Source of the DNA: Holdemania sp. Marseille-P2844
GTDB lineage: Bacteria; Bacillota_I; Bacilli_A; Erysipelotrichales; Erysipelotrichaceae
Direction: 5' to 3'
NCBI RefSeq assembly: GCF_900120005.1
Contig: NZ_LT635448.1
Location: 1 to 64,000 of the forward strand
Length of the DNA stretch: 64,000 nucleotides
Positions 35,887-48,390 of the stretch are shown piece by piece (the stretch's first letter is position 1; every line of letters starts with the position of its first letter). A program made the translations under genes and the position numbers. Below the pieces are notes generated by a model. That model had not been told where the DNA came from and did no database searches. It saw only the letters and a list, made by a program, of their open reading frames with translations.

Positions 35887-36045
35887 GCGCTTTTTTGTGG
35901 AAAAAAATAAAAATTTGACAGGAAATCCCCGGTAAAAACGGACTTTGCGGTCCACAGCGGTTGACAATCGGAGTGAAAACAGGGATGATATTAATGGATT
36001 TTTATGGCCCTTTTTATATCACAACAGAGGAAAGGAGTGCTGGAC

Positions 36046-38115
36046 ATGAATAAGCTGCCTGAAAAATTAACACAGCTAAGAAAATATAACGGGTTTTCAC
36101 AACAGACTGTCGCCGAGAAAGCGCAGGTTTCGGTTCTGGATTATATGGCATGGGAGAACGGAAGAGCGATTCCGGATGTGGATCATCTGATCTTATTAGC
36201 GGAATGCTTCAATGTCAGTCTGGATGAGATGGTCCGCAACGAAGCGGTGAAGCTTCCGGAAAAGGATCTGCATGAAACACTGGATATTCCATTTATGAAG
36301 AAGCCGGAGGAGGAAGTGCCTGCCCCCCCGCTGATCAATGAGCCGATTCCGCCGCAGGAAAAGCTGGGTCAGACGCGCGTCATTCCGGCTGTGAAAGATC
36401 TGGAGAAGACCAAACCGCTGAACGTTGTTAAAGAATCCCCGGTATCGCCGCATGCCGCCGGTACAGCCCGGCCGAAACCCGGACCGGCCAGCGTCAAAAA
36501 GAAGAAACAGACTCAACTGATCGGCGCGGCTGTGGGGATCGGATTAGGCGTGCTGCTTCTGATTCTGGCGCTGAACAGCTTGAGTGGCGGAAAAAAGGAG
36601 AACGTCACCAACATCATGACCGCGGAAAATCGGATTGCGGCGGGCGAGGAGTTCACGCTAGTGCTGAATACCGACGGGACGGTGAAAGGCCAGGGCAGCA
36701 ACGACGAAGGTCAGCTTGACGTCGGCAGCTGGGCGAACATCACCTCCATCAAGGCGGGAGCACGGCACAGCGTCGGCTTGAAGAAAAACGGCATGGTCGT
36801 CGCGGCCGGCAGTTCCCGGCAGCATCAGACCGAAGTCGGCGAATGGAGCGGGATCACGGCCATTGCGGCAGGTGAAAATCACACGCTGGGATTAAAAAAA
36901 GACGGGACTGTTGTCTGCACTGGCGACAACAGCGCTAAACAATGTGAAGTTTCTGAATGGAAGGACGTTGCGAAAATCGCCGCGGGCGGAGATATCAGCG
37001 TCGGCATTACCCGGGAAGGAAAAGTTCTGACCGCCGGCAGCAGCGCGGATGTATCCTCCCTCACCGACGTGCAGAATGTCGTGATCAGCGGCGATACGTT
37101 GTTGATTATAAACAAGTCCGGAGGCCTTGACTGCATCCCGGGCAAAACCGGCGTCTGTCCGGCGAAGACGCCGTCGAACATCACGATGGCCGCTGCTTCC
37201 GCAGAGCACGTCCTGCTGCTTGGCAGCGATGGCACGGTGAGCGCCGAAGGCGATAAGGAATACGGCCGGCTGGAAGTTGAAGCATGGAAAGATGTGATCG
37301 CGGTTGCCGCGGGAGACAAGCATTCCGTCGGTTTGCTGAAAAATGGCAGTCTGGTTGCATCCGGAGATAACAGCCGCGGTCAGAGCGAAATGAACGATAA
37401 CCACGAAGAAGAAAAACAGCTGGAGGCGGTTAAAAATATCACGATCAGTCAGACTGGCGATCAGATCAAAATCAGCTGGGATAAAGTGGAAAACGCGGAT
37501 TACTATGAAGTCAGCGCCGCTTTGAAAAAGGAATATTCGGCCAAGATCGACGGAACTTCCGTTTCCTTAAATGGAAATTTGTTCGAGGATGGCAAGCAGG
37601 TGACTTTCAGCATCGTCGCGTATTCGCGGCAGGATGGTTTCAAGCCGTCGGAAGCGGCAACGCAGGTTTTCAATTATTTCGCTCCGACCGCTACGCCGTC
37701 GCAGACGCTTGCTTCCGTCGCTAACGTCAAGATCAGTCAGGACGCCAACAATGTCCGAATCAGCTGGGATGCGGTGGAGAATGCCGATTACTATGAAGTC
37801 AGCGTTACCAATCAAAACGGCTATCATGAGAAAGTCAGCGGGAACTCGGTTACGCTGCCCAACAGTTCCTTTGAGGATGGCAGACAGGTAACGATCACGA
37901 TCATCGCCGGATCCAACAGCACGCTGTATGAGAATTCGGTGGAATCCGTTACCAATTACAATTATATCGCGCCGACCCCGACGCCAACGCCAACCCCAAC
38001 GCCAACACCAACGGTGCTTCCGTCACCGTCAGAATCATCAGAGCCGACGCCGACTCCGGAGGATGGGGGCCAAGGCGCAGATCAGGAAAGCGAGGATAAT
38101 CATGGAAACGAATAA
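36046..38115 (+). CDS. membrane protein with cytoplasmic XRE HTH, external RCC1-like propeller and FN3 repeats
   Basis: A 689-residue protein with an unusual layout. Residues 5-65 are an XRE-type helix-turn-helix (LTQLRKYNGFSQQTVAEKAQ, WENGRAIPD). A Pro-rich linker follows, then one membrane helix (about 157-180). An outside part carries RCC1-like repeats (about 190-445; pattern AAGxxHSVGLKKNG, repeated). Two FN3-like repeats (465-540, 555-640) share KISWD.VENADYYEVS. A Pro-Thr run (643-656) and an acidic tail end it. ATG 36046 follows GGAAAGGAG. Topology suggests that outside binding is signalled to a cytoplasmic DNA- or protein-binding domain. This is inference. It overlaps the next gene by 14 bases. 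Confidence 0.75.
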   Translation: MNKLPEKLTQLRKYNGFSQQTVAEKAQVSVLDYMAWENGRAIPDVDHLILLAECFNVSLDEMVRNEAVKLPEKDLHETLDIPFMKKPEEEVPAPPLINEPIPPQEKLGQTRVIPAVKDLEKTKPLNVVKESPVSPHAAGTARPKPGPASVKKKKQTQLIGAAVGIGLGVLLLILALNSLSGGKKENVTNIMTAENRIAAGEEFTLVLNTDGTVKGQGSNDEGQLDVGSWANITSIKAGARHSVGLKKNGMVVAAGSSRQHQTEVGEWSGITAIAAGENHTLGLKKDGTVVCTGDNSAKQCEVSEWKDVAKIAAGGDISVGITREGKVLTAGSSADVSSLTDVQNVVISGDTLLIINKSGGLDCIPGKTGVCPAKTPSNITMAAASAEHVLLLGSDGTVSAEGDKEYGRLEVEAWKDVIAVAAGDKHSVGLLKNGSLVASGDNSRGQSEMNDNHEEEKQLEAVKNITISQTGDQIKISWDKVENADYYEVSAALKKEYSAKIDGTSVSLNGNLFEDGKQVTFSIVAYSRQDGFKPSEAATQVFNYFAPTATPSQTLASVANVKISQDANNVRISWDAVENADYYEVSVTNQNGYHEKVSGNSVTLPNSSFEDGRQVTITIIAGSNSTLYENSVESVTNYNYIAPTPTPTPTPTPTPTVLPSPSESSEPTPTPEDGGQGADQESEDNHGNE
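37435..37908 (+). repeat. tandem FN3-like coding repeat and a PT-codon run
   Basis: Two units, from about 37435 and from about 37724, repeat nearly the same 80-base stretch encoding the VENADYYEVS segment. A short run of ACN-CCN codons at 37973-38014 encodes alternating Pro-Thr. The first looks like a domain duplication and the second a slippage-prone linker. Confidence 0.65.
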
Positions 38116-38368
38116 TCGCTGGTATGTGCGCAGAAAAGATGGAAAGAAAGATGGCAGTTTCTCTGACGCGGAGCTGGCTGCTTTGATCAGTAAGGGGATC
38201 GTCGAGCCGGAGGATGAAATCTGGACGATGAAGATGACCGACTGGATGGCATTGAAAGATTCCATTTACAGTTTCTATCTGCCGCGTGAAGAAATGCCGT
38301 TCGTCCTGGAAGACACTGAAGTAGCGTTACAAACGGAAGTTCAATCCGCAGCTGACGAACAAGTTTAA
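38102..38368 (+). CDS. GYF_2-like (DUF4339) domain protein
   Basis: An 88-residue protein built around a GYF_2-type domain: RWYVRRKDGKKDGSFSDAEL, a LISKGIVEPEDEIW segment, then MTDWMALKDS. Such domains bind Pro-rich peptides or act as adaptors. The neighbouring protein ends in a Pro-Thr tail, so a physical interaction is a reasonable guess. The start ATG 38102 lies within the end of that gene, with GCGAGGA upstream, so the two are co-translated. A terminator follows. Confidence 0.7.
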   Translation: METNNRWYVRRKDGKKDGSFSDAELAALISKGIVEPEDEIWTMKMTDWMALKDSIYSFYLPREEMPFVLEDTEVALQTEVQSAADEQV

Positions 38369-38418: not shown

Positions 38419-38645
38419 TGGGTGAGAAAAGAGAGACGAGCGTTAAACATTACAGCTCTGTGTGGGAAACCGGTGTTACATGTCAGGGTCGTTGTTCCGC
38501 TGATCCTTTAAAATGAACAGACAGTTCAACAGGCTTAACGTATCAGTGTCGGCCAGATCCAGTCCCCAATCTTCCCGGAGTTTTCCAATTCGGTAGAAAG
38601 CCGCAAAGCGGTCAGGCTGGAACCGGAGCTGCCTGGCCGTTCTTT

Positions 38646-38765
38646 CAAGCCGCTGCGTATGGACTGTTGCCCCGAAGTATAGAATTTGTTTAACGCAAAC
38701 AGTTCCTGATGATTTCCACATTCCACGATGTCGCCGTTACGCATAATCAGGATCTGATCGGTGCT
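38646..38765 (-). pseudogene. remnant C-terminus of an ABC exporter
   Basis: On the minus strand a stop codon is followed by STDQILIMRNGDIVECGNH and QELFALNKFYT, the H-loop/C-terminal end of an ABC exporter ATPase domain (as in DQILVMKNGxIVEQGxHEELL). After a frameshift near 38673, NSPYAAA and a stop finish in the way such proteins do. No Walker motifs or membrane part remain. This is a decayed or deleted exporter gene, and the rest of 38369-38942 holds no other gene that I can support. Confidence 0.75.
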
Positions 38766-38942: not shown

Positions 38943-40640
38943 ATGACGATGGGGACGCTTTTGACAAAGCTTGAGCCAGCCTTGATGCTGGGATTATTTT
39001 TTCTTGCGGAGCTGCTGGCCGCACTTTTTCTGTTGTCTGTATGGCAGCGCTTACAGGCGAAGCAAAAGCAGGACAAGATCGAAACCTCAGCCCGGAATCA
39101 GGGCGACGCTCTGCTTTTAAAACAAACGAAAGCGGCGCTGCTGACGCTGCGTTTAAGCGACAAGATGCCGCTGGCGGCGTCCAGCGGTCTCAGCGCGCTT
39201 ACGGGACTTTCATTTTCAGAGCTGAAGAGCGATATTCGAAAGCTGATGGACATTGGCGATCCTGCGGAAAGCCGGGCTTTTTTAAAACGTTACCAGAATT
39301 GGGACGGGACTGCGCTGCTCCATCAGCAATTTCAGACAGTAAATTCCAATCGGTGGCTGCGGTTGACGGTACAGCGCAGCGAGGATCAGACGGCTGACAT
39401 CTTTCTGTTTGAAGACTGGACGGAAAATCATGAAACGATGCGGGCATTGGAAGTTCAGCTGGAAGAAGCCGAGGCCGCCAGCCAGTCGAAAACGACGTTC
39501 CTGTCCAAGATGAGTCATGAAATCCGCACGCCGATGAACGGCATTGTCGGCATGCTGACGCTGGCTCACCATGCGCTCGACGAAAACGCGCCGGCCATCG
39601 TTTATCTGCACAAAGCAGAAGAATTAGTTCAGTATATGCTTTCACTGATCAACGATATTCTCGACATGTCGCGCATTGAAGCCGGGCGGATCGAGCTGGA
39701 AGAAAAAGAATTCGACATTCAGGATTTAGCGGAAAAGCTGCGCAGTCTGTTTCAGAAAAATGTGGAGAACAAAGGCGTGCAGTTTATTGTCGAGTTGCTG
39801 GATTTTGACGTGCATAATTTAATCGGCGATGAACTGCGAATTTCGCAGGTGGTAATCAATTTTATCTCCAATGCCGTAAAATTTACCGAGCAGGGGGAAA
39901 TCCGCGTAACCTTCCGTCAGATGCAGCGCTTAAACGGCCGGCTGGATCTTTTAATTCGCGTCCATGATACGGGAATCGGCATGGATCCGGAGTTTATCAG
40001 CCATCTGTTTCATCCATTTGAACAGGAAAGCACGGAAGTTACGAAAAAATACGGCGGCTCGGGTCTGGGGATGGCGATTACTGATCAGCTTGTACAGCTG
40101 ATGGGCGGCGAAATTGTCGTTGATACGACGCCGGGACAGGGTACGGATTTTACAGTCCTGCTGAACCTGCCGATCGCCGCGGATCAGACCGTGAAAACCA
40201 GACGTGTGCCATCGCCGGCAGCCGCTTCCGGAACCACCTCGCTGCAGGGGCGGCACTTCCTGATGGCTGAAGATAATGAAATCAATGCGGAAATTGCCGA
40301 AAGCATGCTTGAAATGGCAGGAGCATCGCTGGATATTGCCCGGGACGGCGCGCAGGCGGTCGCGATGTTTGAAAGTCATGAACCGCATACGTACGACGCA
40401 ATTTTAATGGATATCCAGATGCCGGTGATGGATGGAAGAACGGCGGCCCGGACCATCCGCGCTTTACCCCGCGAGGATGCCCGCCAGATTTTGATTTACG
40501 CTCTTTCCGCCGACGCTTTTGTCGAGGATCAGCGCGCTTCGCTGGAAGCCGGGATGAATGGACATTTTTCCAAGCCGATCAATTTTGAAGAAATGCAGAA
40601 AACACTGGCTGATGCGCTGAAAACGAGGGATTACCTATGA
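38943..40640 (+). CDS. hybrid sensor histidine kinase with receiver domain
   Basis: About 565 residues. An N-terminal membrane segment (MLGLFFLAELLAALFLLSVW) is followed by a PAS-like region and HisKA with the phospho-accepting His in SKMSHEIRTPMNGIVGM. The ATPase domain has N, G1 and G2 boxes (NFISNAVKFTEQG, HDTGIGMDP, GSGLGMAI). A receiver domain ends the protein, with the acidic pair AEDNE and the phospho-acceptor in ILMDIQMPVMDG. No output domain or separate response regulator is seen, so phosphate must pass to another protein. The start is taken at ATG 38943 (GAGGGT upstream). The stop overlaps the next start as ATGA. Confidence 0.9.
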   Translation: MTMGTLLTKLEPALMLGLFFLAELLAALFLLSVWQRLQAKQKQDKIETSARNQGDALLLKQTKAALLTLRLSDKMPLAASSGLSALTGLSFSELKSDIRKLMDIGDPAESRAFLKRYQNWDGTALLHQQFQTVNSNRWLRLTVQRSEDQTADIFLFEDWTENHETMRALEVQLEEAEAASQSKTTFLSKMSHEIRTPMNGIVGMLTLAHHALDENAPAIVYLHKAEELVQYMLSLINDILDMSRIEAGRIELEEKEFDIQDLAEKLRSLFQKNVENKGVQFIVELLDFDVHNLIGDELRISQVVINFISNAVKFTEQGEIRVTFRQMQRLNGRLDLLIRVHDTGIGMDPEFISHLFHPFEQESTEVTKKYGGSGLGMAITDQLVQLMGGEIVVDTTPGQGTDFTVLLNLPIAADQTVKTRRVPSPAAASGTTSLQGRHFLMAEDNEINAEIAESMLEMAGASLDIARDGAQAVAMFESHEPHTYDAILMDIQMPVMDGRTAARTIRALPREDARQILIYALSADAFVEDQRASLEAGMNGHFSKPINFEEMQKTLADALKTRDYL

Positions 40641-43600
40641 ACGATAAAAAACAAATAAGATTGCGAATCGGGCTGACGGTTGTCGGCATCGCGGCGGGGA
40701 TCATCGCCGGTTTGGCACTGTGGAAAATCTATCAGGCCGGCAGCCTGTTTGATCCTTCCCGGATTTCGCTGAACGAACAATTTCAGGAGAACCCAATTCA
40801 GTTCTCCGATCAGGAACAGCTTGGCACACAGGCAGGCGGTGAAAATGATAACGATCTTTTAAAGCAGGATCCGGACGCTGAGAATACGCAGAAACCAAAA
40901 CAGAATCCCGGGGTTGCCGATACGCTGCAGAAAACGGAAGCGAACGACGCTCATCAGCTGGTCATCGGCGGGGAAGGGCAAGGCGCGCAGATTGTGATCG
41001 ATCCGGACAGCGAGCATGTAATCGTTAAGCCCGATGGCGGTCATCAAGGCGGAAGTGTGCCTGACCATAAACCGGAACCTGAGCCGGTTGTCGATCCCGA
41101 TCCGGTGCCTGAGCTGCCGCCGGACATCTTTGAACTCTGGGGTACAAAGCCGTTTCCGGAAGAGGGAATTTCGCAGGGAAGCGATCAGAAACTCGAAGTC
41201 AACGTCTATGAAGGAGATCTCAGCCTGATTTATTATGGCGCGGTATTGGACGACTGGAAATTGTTATGTGCTGCGAATTTTTATATTTTTGAGGGCGGCG
41301 AGATCTACCGGATTGAAGCTTATGGCGAAAATTTTGAAATTGGCGATTATCCGCCGGTCGCGCTTGAGGACTTTACAGTAGCGTTCCGGATCCGGCGGAA
41401 TCCGCAAAGTCCCTGGCAGACGATCACGGTCGACTATACGATCCAGTCCTATAAGATTTTTGTTCAAAACTGGCAGGCGGGCGATTATCTGACTACCTAC
41501 AGTCCGGGCCAGAAGATCAATCTGATTCATTATTATCACTCCATGCTGCCGCAGGAAGGCCCGCTGAAGACCTTATTCTTAGGCTGGTCGCTGGATGGGA
41601 AAACTGCGGTCAATCCGTTGTTTGTCCCGGATCATGCCGGCCGGCAGGTGCTTGTTCCGCTGCCGCTGGCAGAGTTGGACGCCAATCAGGAAATATCTTG
41701 GCAGCAGGATTTTGATGAAAATTCTTTTGCCTATTTGGAATATGTGCAAACGCTGACCGGACTTGTCCAACCGGCAGAACAGCTGAGCGTGTCAGAAGGC
41801 GTGCAGTGGGTTGATCTTTCGGCTTCCGTCGATACGGTTTCATTGCCGAAGTCCGTGTATAAAATCAGCAATCAGAAACTGACGCCGCGCTTTGCCTGGA
41901 GCGTGGATGCGGGAAATCCGTATCTGAGTTCAGAAGATGGTCTGCTTTACAACAAAGCGAAAACCCGCCTGCTTCAGATCCCGTTATCCCGCACGGAAAT
42001 AACGCTGGACGAGCAAGTCGAGGCGGTAGAACTTACGACGGGAAATCATATTCAGCGGCTGATTCTGACCTCTGATCAGCCGGTGGAAATGGATCTGAGC
42101 CAGCTTCACGGCGCGGAAATTGTAGTGCCTTCGGGAACGGAGTGGCGGTATTTGTCCCGCTGGGGCAGTCAGCTTGCCGATAATCAGCTGGTCCGCGACG
42201 ATGGCCAGGCGATTCGGTATCGGGTTGAAGGTGAAGCGCTGCTTTCGGAAGACGGTACGCAGCTGTTAAGCATGCTTGCCAGCGCTGAGGGGATTGTAAG
42301 AATTCCTGAGGGCGTCGTTGAAATTCTGCCAGGCGCCTTGGAAAATCTGGAAAACGTGGAACTGCTTCTGCTGCCCGCAAGTGTAAGCCAGTTGGATTCC
42401 GCGAGTATAACCGCGAATATTCCGCAGATCGTATGTCTGGGCGAAGCGCCGGAAATTCAGCCGGACAGCTTTACGGATCTGACCGCGGTCAGCGCCTGGG
42501 TCAGCGAAGCTCAGGCGGAGAGCTATCGCAGCCGCTGGGCAGCACTGCTGGAGAAGCAGCCGCAGATGCTGCGGACCGCCGCAGAGCTGAGCGTCAAAGC
42601 GGAAGGCAACTTTGAAATTCTGACGCTGGACCAGGAACGGATTCTGTTAAGCGCGGAAAAGTGTCCGACATTCTTAAGCGCCGGGGACTGGCCGCAGGGA
42701 ATTACCCGAATTGGCAGCCGGGCCTTTGCCGGCAACGCTGCGCTGTTTGCAGCGGAGATTCCGGAAAGCGTGGAAGCGATCGGCAGGCATGCTTTTGCCG
42801 ACTGTCTTAAGCTGGAAGGACTGGTCAGCTTGAATCCGACCGCAATCACCGTGCAGGATCAGGCGCTGGAAGGCGCACCCAAACTGCATTTTGCAGCATT
42901 CAATGCCGGTCATGCGGAATTTGTCAATGACTATCAGCCTTCAATACCGGGGTTCGCGCCGGAAGATACCTATTTCAACTATGAATATCCCTATAGTTTC
43001 CATTACGCAAATCATCATTATTCTCTGGAACAGGTCGGGGAGACGGGCTTGTTGTATGGCTGGGGCGAAGATCTGGATCCCCAGGCACTGGCAGTTCTGC
43101 AGTCTACCTGGAATGCGGCAGGCGAAATTCCGCTGCTTCCGCATACGCGGGGGATCGACGAGGCGGCGTTTAAAGACTGCGCCAATCCGTTTACCTTAAC
43201 AAATGGAGAAGAACTGACCTGGATCATGGATTCCGCGTTTGAAAATTCAGGGTACTCCGGAACGTTCATCTTGCCGGAAGGTCTGGAGTATATTGGAATC
43301 CGTTCCTTTTCGAATTGTGTGAATCTGGAAGCTGTCCGCTTTACCGGCAGCTCTCTGACGCAGATAGAAGATTCTGCATTTGAAGGATGCGTCTCGCTGG
43401 CGACAGTTGAATTTGCACAGGACAGCGCGATCGACATGATCAGCACAGCGGCTTTTGCCAATACGGCGTTGAAAACCATTGATCTGCCCGCCAGTCTGAC
43501 GGCGTTGGGAACTGAAGTTTTCTATGGATGCACTCAGTTGAGCGAAGTGATTTTTCACAATCCGCAGCCGCCGACGCTGGTCGTGCCGAGCTACGCAATG

Positions 43601-44038
43601 CCATTTTATTTCGGCGACGCGCTGCCGGAAGATTTCCATGTCACATTGACCGATCCAGCCTGGACGCAAACGTATGTCGACCAGTGGAAAACACAATTAA
43701 TGGGCTATGGAAGTCCGGATGAAATGACTGCCGGGGAACTGGATGAGGGCGAGCGGCGAGCCTGGCAGCTGTTTGGGGGACAACGGTCTGCGACCTCTTT
43801 GATGGAGCCCGCGGCGTCCCTCAGTCCCGAACCTTCTCCGGAAATAGAATCTGCGCCAGAATGGGATCCGGCAATTCCGACTCCTGAGGTAACAGCGCCC
43901 ATTCCGGAATCAACGGCCGCACCGGATTCGATTCCGCCCAAAGCAATAGAGAACAATGACCCGGCGGTCATCCCGCCGTCGATTGAAGCAACGCCGCCAT
44001 CAGAGGCAATACCGCAGACACAGGAGGGACAGTCATGA
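40637..44038 (+). CDS. membrane-anchored BspA-type leucine-rich-repeat surface protein
   Basis: A 1133-residue protein. Residues 8-30 form an uncleaved-type membrane anchor (LTVVGIAAGIIAGLALW). An acidic, Pro-rich stretch (about 45-170) follows, then a folded region, and BspA/LRR_5-type repeats in the middle and later parts (ITRIGSRAFAGNAALFAAEI, LEYIGIRSFSNCVNLEAVRF, IEDSAFEGCVSLATVEF, LTALGTEVFYGCTQLSEVIF). A Pro/Glu/Ser-rich tail ends it. Such repeats are common on gut bacteria and bind host or bacterial ligands. It is coupled to the kinase in front and the MoxR gene behind by ATGA overlaps. It could be the sensor partner of the kinase, but that is inference. Confidence 0.8.
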   Translation: MNDKKQIRLRIGLTVVGIAAGIIAGLALWKIYQAGSLFDPSRISLNEQFQENPIQFSDQEQLGTQAGGENDNDLLKQDPDAENTQKPKQNPGVADTLQKTEANDAHQLVIGGEGQGAQIVIDPDSEHVIVKPDGGHQGGSVPDHKPEPEPVVDPDPVPELPPDIFELWGTKPFPEEGISQGSDQKLEVNVYEGDLSLIYYGAVLDDWKLLCAANFYIFEGGEIYRIEAYGENFEIGDYPPVALEDFTVAFRIRRNPQSPWQTITVDYTIQSYKIFVQNWQAGDYLTTYSPGQKINLIHYYHSMLPQEGPLKTLFLGWSLDGKTAVNPLFVPDHAGRQVLVPLPLAELDANQEISWQQDFDENSFAYLEYVQTLTGLVQPAEQLSVSEGVQWVDLSASVDTVSLPKSVYKISNQKLTPRFAWSVDAGNPYLSSEDGLLYNKAKTRLLQIPLSRTEITLDEQVEAVELTTGNHIQRLILTSDQPVEMDLSQLHGAEIVVPSGTEWRYLSRWGSQLADNQLVRDDGQAIRYRVEGEALLSEDGTQLLSMLASAEGIVRIPEGVVEILPGALENLENVELLLLPASVSQLDSASITANIPQIVCLGEAPEIQPDSFTDLTAVSAWVSEAQAESYRSRWAALLEKQPQMLRTAAELSVKAEGNFEILTLDQERILLSAEKCPTFLSAGDWPQGITRIGSRAFAGNAALFAAEIPESVEAIGRHAFADCLKLEGLVSLNPTAITVQDQALEGAPKLHFAAFNAGHAEFVNDYQPSIPGFAPEDTYFNYEYPYSFHYANHHYSLEQVGETGLLYGWGEDLDPQALAVLQSTWNAAGEIPLLPHTRGIDEAAFKDCANPFTLTNGEELTWIMDSAFENSGYSGTFILPEGLEYIGIRSFSNCVNLEAVRFTGSSLTQIEDSAFEGCVSLATVEFAQDSAIDMISTAAFANTALKTIDLPASLTALGTEVFYGCTQLSEVIFHNPQPPTLVVPSYAMPFYFGDALPEDFHVTLTDPAWTQTYVDQWKTQLMGYGSPDEMTAGELDEGERRAWQLFGGQRSATSLMEPAASLSPEPSPEIESAPEWDPAIPTPEVTAPIPESTAAPDSIPPKAIENNDPAVIPPSIEATPPSEAIPQTQEGQS

Positions 44039-44985
44039 TTATTGAACAATCGGAACAAATTATCCGCGAAGTTTCCAAAGCGTTTACCGGGAAAGATGAA
44101 ATCATCCGCAAGGTGCTGATGACGATCTATGCCGGCGGCCATATCCTGTTGGAAGATTGCCCGGGCGTGGGAAAAACAACGCTGGCCCTGGCTTTTTCCA
44201 AAGCGCTGGGGCTGGATTATCAACGAGTTCAGTTTACGCCGGACACGCTGCCCTCCGATATCACTGGTTTCAGCATGTTCAACCGCCAGACGAATCAATT
44301 TGAATACCGTGAAGGCGCGGCTGCCTGCAACCTTTTGTTAGCAGACGAAATCAACCGGACGTCGCCGAAGACACAATCCGCGCTGTTGGAAGCCATGGAG
44401 GAACATCGCGTCACCGTTGATGGTGCGACGCATCGGCTGCCTGATCCGTTTATCTGCATCGCAACGCAGAATCCGTTGGGAACGACCGGCACGCAGCCGC
44501 TGCCGGAATCGCAGATGGACCGTTTCATGGTACGGCTTTCGATCGGTTATCCGGCAACGGAGGATCAGGTGCGGATTCTCAAAGCCCGCCGTTATGTGAA
44601 CCCGCTCGATGAGATCCAGAAAATCGCATCCCGCTAGAATATCCGCGAGGTGCAGAATTATCTGACTTCCGTTCGGATTCATGACGATGTGCTGCATTAT
44701 CTGATCCGCCTGTGCGAACGGACGCGCGAGCTGCCGGCGATTGAGCTGGGCGTGAGTCCGCGCGGTGTTTTGGCGCTGACGCAGATGACCAAAGCCCATG
44801 CGGTATTAATGGACCGCAATTATGCGCTGCCGCAGGATGTCCGCGCTGTGTTTAACGACGTCTGTGCGCATCGTCTGATTTTACGTCCGCAGGCCAGGGT
44901 AGAAGGAATTATGCCGAAGGCTTTGATGAATGCGGTCCTGGATGAAATTGCGCCGCCGCAGAAACCGGGAGGCGCCCGGGCATGA
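44035..44985 (+). pseudogene. MoxR-family AAA+ ATPase with an in-frame amber stop
   Basis: MoxR proteins are AAA+ chaperones that usually work with a DUF58 protein. Codons 1-200 give the ATPase core: EDCPGVGKTTLALAF (Walker A), LLLADEINRTSPKTQ (Walker B), and TQNPLGTTGTQPLPESQMDRF. A TAG at 44635-44637 (codon 201) interrupts the frame after KIASR. The same frame continues without shift through the lid domain (NIREVQNYL..SPRGVLALTQMTKAHAV) to the normal end at 44985, which overlaps the DUF58 gene by ATGA. A CAG-to-TAG change would explain it (family members often have Gln there). It is either a fresh nonsense mutation, a sequence error, or suppression. Confidence 0.8.
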
Positions 44986-46146: not shown

Positions 46147-48390
46147 ATGAGTGAAAAAGGGCGTCGGAAGAAAACCGAAAGAGAAATTGTTTACGCGATG
46201 GAGATTATCGCGGGTTTTCTTCTGCTTGCCGGTTTTGCCGCCCAGCTGGCTGTGATCTGCGCAAGACCAGTCAGCGGCCTTTGGGGTCCGTGGCTGGTTG
46301 GCGCCGCGCTGCTTGGATTGCAGGCGGGATTGACGAAAACCAGCCGGCTGCGGCTTTGCCGAAGCCTGTGGCTGGCATGGCTGGGATTGACGCTGCTTCT
46401 TTTGCCATGGCTGGTTTCCGGACTGGTGGCGTGCGTGAATGGCCTGATTCAGGCCTGGAATGTCTATGAGGAGGACGCCCGGAATATTCTGGCTAATCCC
46501 TTGTTAACACGTTTCTCTTATTCGATCTTTTTCACCGTCTTGATGAGCGGATTTGCGATTCTGATCTGGACATGGCGCAGCCATCCGGGCCGGATGGGAC
46601 TGACCGTTCTGCTTCTGATGATGCCCGGGCTGCGGTTACGCTGTGTGTCTTCCTGGGCGATGGTGCTGATGCTGGCGGGGATTGCAGCTCTCTGGCTTCA
46701 ATGGGTCAACGCGGCGTCTGTGGGAAAACGCTGGCTCTGGCTTGGCGTGATCAGCGCGCTGCTTCTGACATTCATCGGAAAGAATCAGGAATTAATGGAA
46801 ATGACGCGGCTGCGGAAGGATCTCTTTGCCAATCTGGATACGCTGCGCTATGGTGGGGATTCCCTGCCGCAGGGCGATGTTTGGAAAGCGGATCGTTTAT
46901 TAAGCGGGGAAGGAGCGACGCTGACGGTTACGACGGAGCAGCTGAAAACCTTTTATCTGCGCGGCTATATTGGCGGCCGGTATGAAGGGGGCCGGTGGCT
47001 GGCGCTGAAGAAAGCGGCCTATGCCGGAAGCAATGAAGGCATGTTAAAGTGGCTGGAAATGGAGAACTTCCCCGTCGGGGCGCAGTCAGCCGCAACGTTG
47101 AGGCTGGATCCGGATACCCCGCTGCAGGCAAATCGGATAGAAGTGGCCAATCACGGCGCAAATCGGAAATATTCCTACTTTCCTTATTCAGTGGAAGCAG
47201 ACACTATAACAGGTTCAGTCCGCAGCTGGCTGGATATGGGCTATCATGCCAACGCTCTGTTGGGTTTTCGGCATGGGGAGTTTGTCGAATGGTCTGGCGA
47301 TCAGCCGGGCGAACTGCTTCACGCCCCGGATTGGATAAAAGCACCTCAAACGGATGCGCAGCGTCAATACATTCAGGCTGAAGCCGTCTACCGTAGTTTT
47401 GTCTATCAGAATTATCTGGATGTCGATGCGGAAACTGAGTCGCTGATCCGCACTTTGTTTCTCAAGGAACCGATGAGCTCTCCGGGAATTTATGAGGCTG
47501 TGACGCGAATTCGGGATATTCTGGAAAAGCAGGTTCAATATGCCGAAACACCGCCGCAAACGCCGCAGTCAGCGGATCCGGTCCGCTGGTTTTTAAGCGA
47601 GAGCCGAACCGGCAATGCAGTGCAGTACGCCTCTGCGGCCGTCATGGCTTTTCGTGTTATGGGAATTCCAGCCCGTTACGCGGAAGGCTACCGGCTGACC
47701 AGAGAACAGATCAGCGCCGGGGGGATCGCAGAGCTGACCGCTCAGGACAGCCATGCCTGGTGCGAGGTGTATCTGGATGGCTTGGGTTGGATTCCTGTCG
47801 ATGTAACTCCCGGCTGTTATTACGATACATTTGCATTGCTGCAGATGGCGGAACAACCGCAGGATATTGAAATGACGGCAGCCTTGAAGGACTCGGAAGA
47901 TCCGGGCGAGCTGTTGGACGATCTCGCTTCCCAACCAACCGAACCCCAGACGCCGCTGCTTTCGCCAGTCAGCGGTGTTCTTGGAGCAATCCTGCTTTTG
48001 TGCGATTTTGTTCTGTTCTTGCTGATCGTGCTGGAAGTCCGGCGTCAGCTGCGGATAAGCCGCTGGCGGCGGCGTTGGAAAGACGCTTCGGCGCGGGATG
48101 AAATATTGTACAAGCTGATCGGCAGCTTGATGAAAGCTCTGGCAGTTCCTTATCAGCCTGGCTGGAAAGCTGAGCTTACCGCATGGAGGCTGAATCAGAA
48201 ACTGCCGGGGATCGCGGAAGCGGATATTCTGCGGGCGCAGGCGTTGATTGAAAAGCTGATCTATGCTCAAGAGTCGCTGCAGCCCCATGAACAACGCGTC
48301 CTGATTTCTGTGATCGAACAGATTTACGCCAACCGGAAATCGCTGACAGGCAAAGAACGGCTGCGGCTGCGCTATCGCATCGCATTGTAA
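46147..48390 (+). CDS. TgpA-type transglutaminase-like membrane protein lacking the catalytic Cys
   Basis: A 747-residue protein. The N-terminal third has several membrane helices, an external domain carries the transglutaminase core (about residues 480-560), and a late membrane helix (LGAILLLCDFVLFLLIVLEV) precedes a basic cytoplasmic tail. Members normally read GYC.HFA in the active-site strand. Here it is TGNAVQYASAAVM, with Ala in place of the nucleophilic Cys. The His and Asp stretches (SHAWCEVYLDGLGWIPVDVTPG) and IPARYAEGY are intact, which makes this a likely pseudo-transglutaminase with a binding rather than catalytic role. It is the last gene of the kinase-LRR-MoxR-DUF58 operon. Confidence 0.88.
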   Translation: MSEKGRRKKTEREIVYAMEIIAGFLLLAGFAAQLAVICARPVSGLWGPWLVGAALLGLQAGLTKTSRLRLCRSLWLAWLGLTLLLLPWLVSGLVACVNGLIQAWNVYEEDARNILANPLLTRFSYSIFFTVLMSGFAILIWTWRSHPGRMGLTVLLLMMPGLRLRCVSSWAMVLMLAGIAALWLQWVNAASVGKRWLWLGVISALLLTFIGKNQELMEMTRLRKDLFANLDTLRYGGDSLPQGDVWKADRLLSGEGATLTVTTEQLKTFYLRGYIGGRYEGGRWLALKKAAYAGSNEGMLKWLEMENFPVGAQSAATLRLDPDTPLQANRIEVANHGANRKYSYFPYSVEADTITGSVRSWLDMGYHANALLGFRHGEFVEWSGDQPGELLHAPDWIKAPQTDAQRQYIQAEAVYRSFVYQNYLDVDAETESLIRTLFLKEPMSSPGIYEAVTRIRDILEKQVQYAETPPQTPQSADPVRWFLSESRTGNAVQYASAAVMAFRVMGIPARYAEGYRLTREQISAGGIAELTAQDSHAWCEVYLDGLGWIPVDVTPGCYYDTFALLQMAEQPQDIEMTAALKDSEDPGELLDDLASQPTEPQTPLLSPVSGVLGAILLLCDFVLFLLIVLEVRRQLRISRWRRRWKDASARDEILYKLIGSLMKALAVPYQPGWKAELTAWRLNQKLPGIAEADILRAQALIEKLIYAQESLQPHEQRVLISVIEQIYANRKSLTGKERLRLRYRIAL

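Follow-up and report, generated by a model that had tools for sequence, protein, structure and literature searches.

A membrane-spanning HTH-RCC1 protein and an adjoining GYF protein form a conserved gene pair in Erysipelotrichaceae

In Holdemania sp., a gene whose predicted product places an XRE-type helix-turn-helix (HTH) domain inside the membrane and an RCC1 propeller outside it is overlapped at its end by a small gene for a GYF-domain protein. The association is not a matter of chance, the two genes being kept together in about half of the bacterial family. The pair is built from known parts, and no publication on this architecture was found in a search of the open-access literature (subscription papers lay outside it). 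The best reading of the pair, held with about even confidence, is that the two proteins form a complex across the membrane, in which the HTH serves for docking and GYF is a dedicated subunit. In such a complex, encoded as one overlapping two-gene unit, the propeller and its FN3/Pro-Thr extension would bind a wall or cell-surface ligand, and the XRE-fold domain inside would be a protein-docking platform. The GYF_2 protein would be a cytosolic subunit that docks either on the HTH or on the segment immediately following, and that would pass the signal to a further protein.

The gene pair and its conservation

The unit lies in a window of 64,000 nucleotides, the whole stretch of DNA that was analysed, and consists of the open reading frame for the protein P0001 (36046-38115, +) and that for P0002 (38102-38368, +), with an overlap of 14 nt. 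P0001 has 689 amino acids, starts with ATG at 36046 after an AAAGGAG-like site, stops at 38113-38115, and is 81% and 86% identical to its relatives in H. massiliensis and H. filiformis. The order proposed for it in the initial annotation, an HTH domain, a membrane helix, RCC1 repeats, two FN3 domains and a Pro/Thr tail, was right, as were the coordinates, judged by Pfam matches and by an AlphaFold model (mean pLDDT 80, from an alignment of 40 rows). The XRE-type HTH (residues 1-65; 36046..36240, +; HTH_3, 35.3 bits against a cut-off of 23) is modelled as five helices over residues 4-63 with a pLDDT of about 93, and its recognition face reads V-L-D-Y-M-A. A disordered cytoplasmic linker (residues 66-154; 36241..36507, +), mostly below pLDDT 50 over residues 76-154, leads to a transmembrane helix (residues 155-179; 36508..36582, +) that is supported by hydropathy and by the model. 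Basic residues stand directly N-terminal to this helix, and the charges suggest an N-in/C-out topology; a bitopic protein with its propeller outside and its HTH inside, as first proposed, is supported. The propeller of RCC1/BLIP-II type (residues 192-445; 36619..37380, +) matches RCC1_2 in five stretches with 139.7 bits (cut-off 22) and is followed by two FN3 domains (residues 466-543, 37441..37674, +; residues 562-639, 37729..37962, +). The latter are seen as FN3-like strands in the model, with weak matches to FN3-like families, GH85_C at residues 561-599 among them, and with fn3 matches in the relatives at L136, L107, L103 and L112. The Pro/Thr-rich C-terminal tail (37963..38112, +) is evident from the sequence, which showed no sorting motif, and is disordered in the model.

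P0002 (88 amino acids; 38102..38368, +) matches GYF_2 with 38.2 bits (cut-off 25.8), and its model (pLDDT 75) has a GYF fold with moderate Z scores of 6-7 to the solved GYF domains of GIGYF1/2, SMY2, GltJ and CD2BP2, in agreement with its earlier description as a GYF_2-like protein. Beyond the pair, two short overlapping frames at 38476-38744 (-) resemble, from their translations, the end of a disrupted ABC transporter gene. Further downstream, a BspA-type LRR protein (40637-44038) and a transglutaminase-core protein (46147-48390) are encoded beside moxR and DUF58 genes. The moxR-like gene (44035-44985; AAA_3 at 44035-44637, AAA_lid_2 at 44650-44985) is split by an in-frame TAG at 44635-44637, for which a pseudogene, a sequencing error and readthrough are candidate explanations.

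Among the 170 genomes of the family that are at least 90% complete, tallied by hand, 80 have both genes, six the HTH gene only, one the GYF gene only, and 83 neither; the two genes that the initial annotation had paired at this one locus are conserved together. Family-type HTH domains were accepted at E<=1.2e-20 (89 hits in 86 genomes), the next score, 1.1e-17, following after a gap, and family-type GYF domains at E<=1.5e-18 (81 genomes), again with a gap before the next score of 8.7e-14. All but three of the 89 HTH hits lie in open frames of at least 398 amino acids, and the three others (106, 204 and 152 amino acids) are probably contig-end pieces. Four of the six HTH-only genomes belong to one genus (G023, G264, G265, G266; the others are G186 and G170), and in that genus the HTH gene persists with the GYF gene missing; GYF is therefore dispensable, which counts against the proposed complex. 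In the GYF-only genome (G113), the open reading frame upstream of the GYF gene is cut off.

The same pairing is seen locus by locus. In 63 RCC1 open reading frames, taken from the window and from regions selected by the analyst among 175 RCC1-bearing genomes of the order, 40 carry an HTH and one membrane helix; a standalone GYF frame adjoins 37 of these 40, directly downstream on the same strand, as against none of the 23 RCC1 frames that lack an HTH. The reverse test started from 40 GYF loci picked from the 81 carrier genomes, mostly leaving out those of the HTH-RCC1 set, and found an RCC1 frame directly upstream in all 40, with the HTH visible in 36 and cut off in four (one of the 40, L215, is apparently the same contig as L066, both having 37,404 bases). 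The GYF gene thus adjoins the HTH-RCC1 gene family-wide. Across the 37 pairs the widest gap is 17 nt and the longest overlap 29 nt; 24 of them overlap when starts are set by one rule. At many loci gapA lies on one side of the pair and cysS-mrnC-rlmB-sigma factor on the other (names given to the genes from the starts of their sequences), a context that speaks for vertical inheritance. Standalone GYF occurs in 15 of 392 genomes drawn from the phylum, all 15 inside the family, and the pair was not seen outside the family among these 392; one genome of this draw (G006) has GYF within a 391-aa frame.

The HTH domain, its upstream region and its likeness to RodZ

Conservation within the P0001 family is highest in the HTH (0.59, against 0.46 for the propeller and 0.22 for the linker), which also leads in mean pairwise identity (0.48 vs 0.33). 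An alignment compared forty family HTH domains with 19 XRE-like controls from the same genomes, a few of these controls being weak or partial. The recognition helix of the 19 mostly reads S-R-Q-[AST]-[VI]-S-K-W (R in 14, Q in 15, S in 13, K in 14), whereas that of the family reads [DSP]-V-[LT]-[ED]-Y-M-[NGAS]-[WY], with E/D in 37, Y in 39 and M in 36 of 40, and is followed by a near-invariant ENG (E and N in 40, G in 39 of 40). By this sequence comparison V/L/T, E/D, Y, M and small residues have taken the place of the usual base-reading residues, at positions which we take to be base contacts as in 434/lambda-type repressors. R12, Q19 and N38, presumably the XRE positions that usually touch backbone phosphates, are kept. 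With base-reading residues lost in favour of a conserved [E/D]-Y-M face, the HTH is read as protein-docking, as in RodZ, and we infer that ordinary DNA binding has probably been given up. A 649-aa XRE protein near ftsZ (L274) was set aside as a family member, its helix being an ordinary SRQAVSKW.

The initial annotation had allowed for DNA binding by this domain, and the pair could in that case be a one-component membrane transcription regulator, in which the propeller senses a ligand, the HTH contacts DNA close to the membrane and the GYF protein has a modulating part. The HTH_3 fold scores above its cut-off, residues of the backbone-contact type are kept, and a uniform recognition helix could equally mean one uniform DNA site. 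There is also a 31-nt block near the promoter (35976..36006, +) that is conserved within the genus, matching at 31, 31, 31 and 29 of 31 positions in four Holdemania loci while the remaining spacer diverges. The promoter-like TTGACA-17-GATGAT (35961..35989, +; 10 of 12 consensus matches) lies in the stretch kept in these four loci but is weak by itself, three such sites having been found in the region against 2.3 expected. However, the block is missing from the 36 other loci, where no candidate scores above the top value from 100 shuffles of that locus, despite the conserved HTH, and no upstream element common to the whole family was found. Nor does the genome contain a regulon for it, its 20-nt core having one exact site and one site with three mismatches; as a genus-only feature, the block was rejected as an autoregulatory operator. 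With the base-reading residues replaced as well, DNA binding by the HTH is not supported, and such a regulator is considered unlikely.

A docking HTH on a membrane protein has a precedent in RodZ, whose XRE-class HTH is reported to contact MreB, not DNA (PMC6946637). RodZ of E. coli and B. subtilis is likewise bitopic, with an N-terminal XRE-class HTH inside, one helix, and a further domain outside; P0001 differs in carrying an RCC1 propeller outside and in having an HTH of another family. Orthology to RodZ was rejected: P0001 has no Pfam match to HTH_25 at E<=0.1, the genome encodes a separate RodZ-like HTH_25 protein of 299 amino acids together with MreB, and the pair persists without MreB. 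An envelope scaffold for growth or division, RodZ-like except that its partner would be a different component of the cytoskeleton or divisome, would fit the shared HTH-membrane-ectodomain plan and an acidic-IP-aromatic motif near the HTH (motif A, below), which is slightly like the FtsZ tail; in 24 genomes this tail mostly has IPxFF at its end. However, RodZ and MreB are separate genes here, and of 15 carriers of the pair among 97 genomes, eight lack strong matches to MreB and RodZ. Furthermore, motif A is IPF rather than IPxF, save at a few loci (IPSF in L107, L218 and L194), and it is mostly missing where linkers are short. Mimicry of the FtsZ tail by motif A was rejected as a weak likeness, and the scaffold is regarded as somewhat less probable still than the regulator.

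The linker and the GYF protein

The linker varies from 16 to about 130 amino acids across loci. Long linkers contain two short motifs. Motif A (LDIPF, residues 79-83; 36280..36294, +) follows the pattern [IVL]x[IL][PA][FS], found in 36 of 45 long linkers (shuffles: mean 1.0, maximum 6), mostly 12-15 amino acids past the HTH, and is absent from most short-linker loci. Motif B (LGQTRVI, residues 107-113; 36364..36384, +) follows T[RKQ][VIAS][IMVL], found in 35 of 45 (shuffles: mean 4.3, maximum 11). Both stand far above shuffles, which makes them plausible docking sites in long linkers, and possibly sites for GYF, though GYF is also retained at loci without motifs A and B. An FHA domain, sought as a reader of motif B, was not found in the Holdemania genome itself, and that reading was dropped.

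That the GYF protein binds the Pro-rich cytoplasmic linker, as had been suggested initially, fails as a general rule, since GYF is kept where linkers have 16-42 amino acids and hold 0-3 prolines. Such short, Pro-poor linkers beside a GYF gene occur at L108, L111, L122, L124 and L125, and at loci of genera g3, g45 and g75. The GYF proteins of the family stand alone; with starts set by a single criterion they have 58-88 amino acids, and their end is conserved as DSIYxFYL. Loci with long linkers show the classical GPF/W features, which most loci with short linkers have lost; the GPF-type groove position is GSF in P0002, GSF or GGF in Holdemania, and GPF or GPY in many long-linker loci. Fisher tests join canonical GYF strongly to linker type, but the two traits change only twice and once on the tree (76 rows, 75 of them different), and for this reason the covariation is not counted as evidence. 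One locus with a misplaced HTH start (L229) was dropped from the trait counts on the tree and from the motif and mirror-tree analyses; it was kept in the tree itself and in the N64 and Fisher tallies.

Docking just after the HTH is hinted at by N64 (model column 64, residue N65 of P0001), an asparagine directly past the domain that is present in 72 of 73 rows with GYF and in none of three rows without, a hint weakened because those three rows all come from one genus. Mirror-tree analysis of 22 loci gave no specific co-evolution of HTH and GYF (partial r -0.10 given CysS and RCC1; 467 of 500 permutations as high), GYF following the propeller better (0.39), a result that counts against the proposed complex. 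No HTH fused to GYF was seen in the open reading frames of L048-L063. The best PDB sequence match to P0002, a weak one (E 0.025), is the bacterial GYF fold of GltJ/AgmX of Myxococcus (Z 6.7). In other genera GYF domains lie within larger proteins that, to judge by their sequences, resemble zinc-ribbon/TM proteins; P0002-type proteins differ from GltJ/AgmX and from zinc-ribbon-GYF-TM proteins in being standalone and paired with an HTH-RCC1 gene.

The propeller and related receptors

Structure prediction, which had been called for as a check on the RCC1 part, gave a closed seven-bladed propeller in the AlphaFold model, with seven strand groups over residues 197-440 as against the five repeats scored by Pfam; the blade count is new relative to the initial annotation. 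Its structural neighbours are of RCC1 type overall (Z 25-31), among them UVR8 (Z 31.0, rmsd 2.0, 258 residues), BLIP-II (Z 28.4, rmsd 2.2, 231 residues, 29% identity) and the plant CR4 ectodomain (Z 27.7, rmsd 2.3, 248 residues), as well as HERC and RCC1. Like P0001, BLIP-II of Streptomyces offers an extracellular bacterial propeller of this type, but it is a free secreted beta-lactamase inhibitor with neither membrane anchor nor HTH. One survey (PMC9218822) describes the RCC1/BLIP-II propellers of its data set as mostly bacterial in origin. In the Holdemania genome, RCC1_2 has five matches, all inside the P0001 frame. Blade 3 contains C291 and C300, the latter in all of 40 family members and both in 35; Cys pairs in propeller blades are described for CR4 receptors (PMC4617170).

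What follows the propeller varies: FN3 domains and a Pro-Thr tail in P0001, Flg_new or MucBP in other loci, and a Cys-containing C-terminal domain in the short-linker genera. A PASTA nature of this last domain was rejected, with one of 17 members matching at E 0.093 and an unrelated best PDB hit. A surface adhesin or wall protein, with the HTH as an inert N-terminal anchor, would suit the fn3, MucBP and Flg_new domains of the relatives and the Pro/Thr tail, but is improbable and the least favoured of the readings, with the HTH more conserved than the rest of the protein and coupled to a cytosolic GYF gene.

The propeller is also found joined to other partners. A Ser/Thr kinase, a membrane helix and an RCC1 propeller share one open reading frame at L128 (2589-5450), resembling the plant CR4 plan. 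TIR-TPR-membrane-RCC1 proteins are encoded at L114 (2813-5461) and L126 (3943-6765), possibly with a part in defence or signalling. An RCC1 propeller lies within an OppC-type ABC permease at L113, L118 and L160, and a multi-helix pattern suggests the same at further loci such as L117. Joined in this way to kinase, TIR-TPR and permease, the propeller appears to be an interchangeable external module, comparable to that of the CR4 receptors of plants (PMC4617170). CRINKLY4/ACR4 share with P0001 a seven-bladed RCC1-type propeller outside (Z 27.7 and 26.6), one helix, and an effector inside, which is a kinase there and an HTH in P0001, where Pfam gave no kinase match.

In summary, the proposed membrane-spanning complex of docking HTH and GYF subunit may, more tentatively, stand for an Erysipelotrichaceae-wide receptor class, in which the RCC1 propeller would read a wall or surface ligand and control a cytosolic target through the docking HTH and a GYF adaptor, the propeller module being shared with kinases, TIR proteins and a permease. 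Because the two genes occur almost one to one in some 80 species, whether their products are partners can be tested directly. If the proposal is true, the family would have a further membrane XRE domain, apart from RodZ, that serves protein rather than DNA contacts and has a defined partner gene, and P0001 and its relatives would be a bacterial counterpart of the plant propeller receptors.
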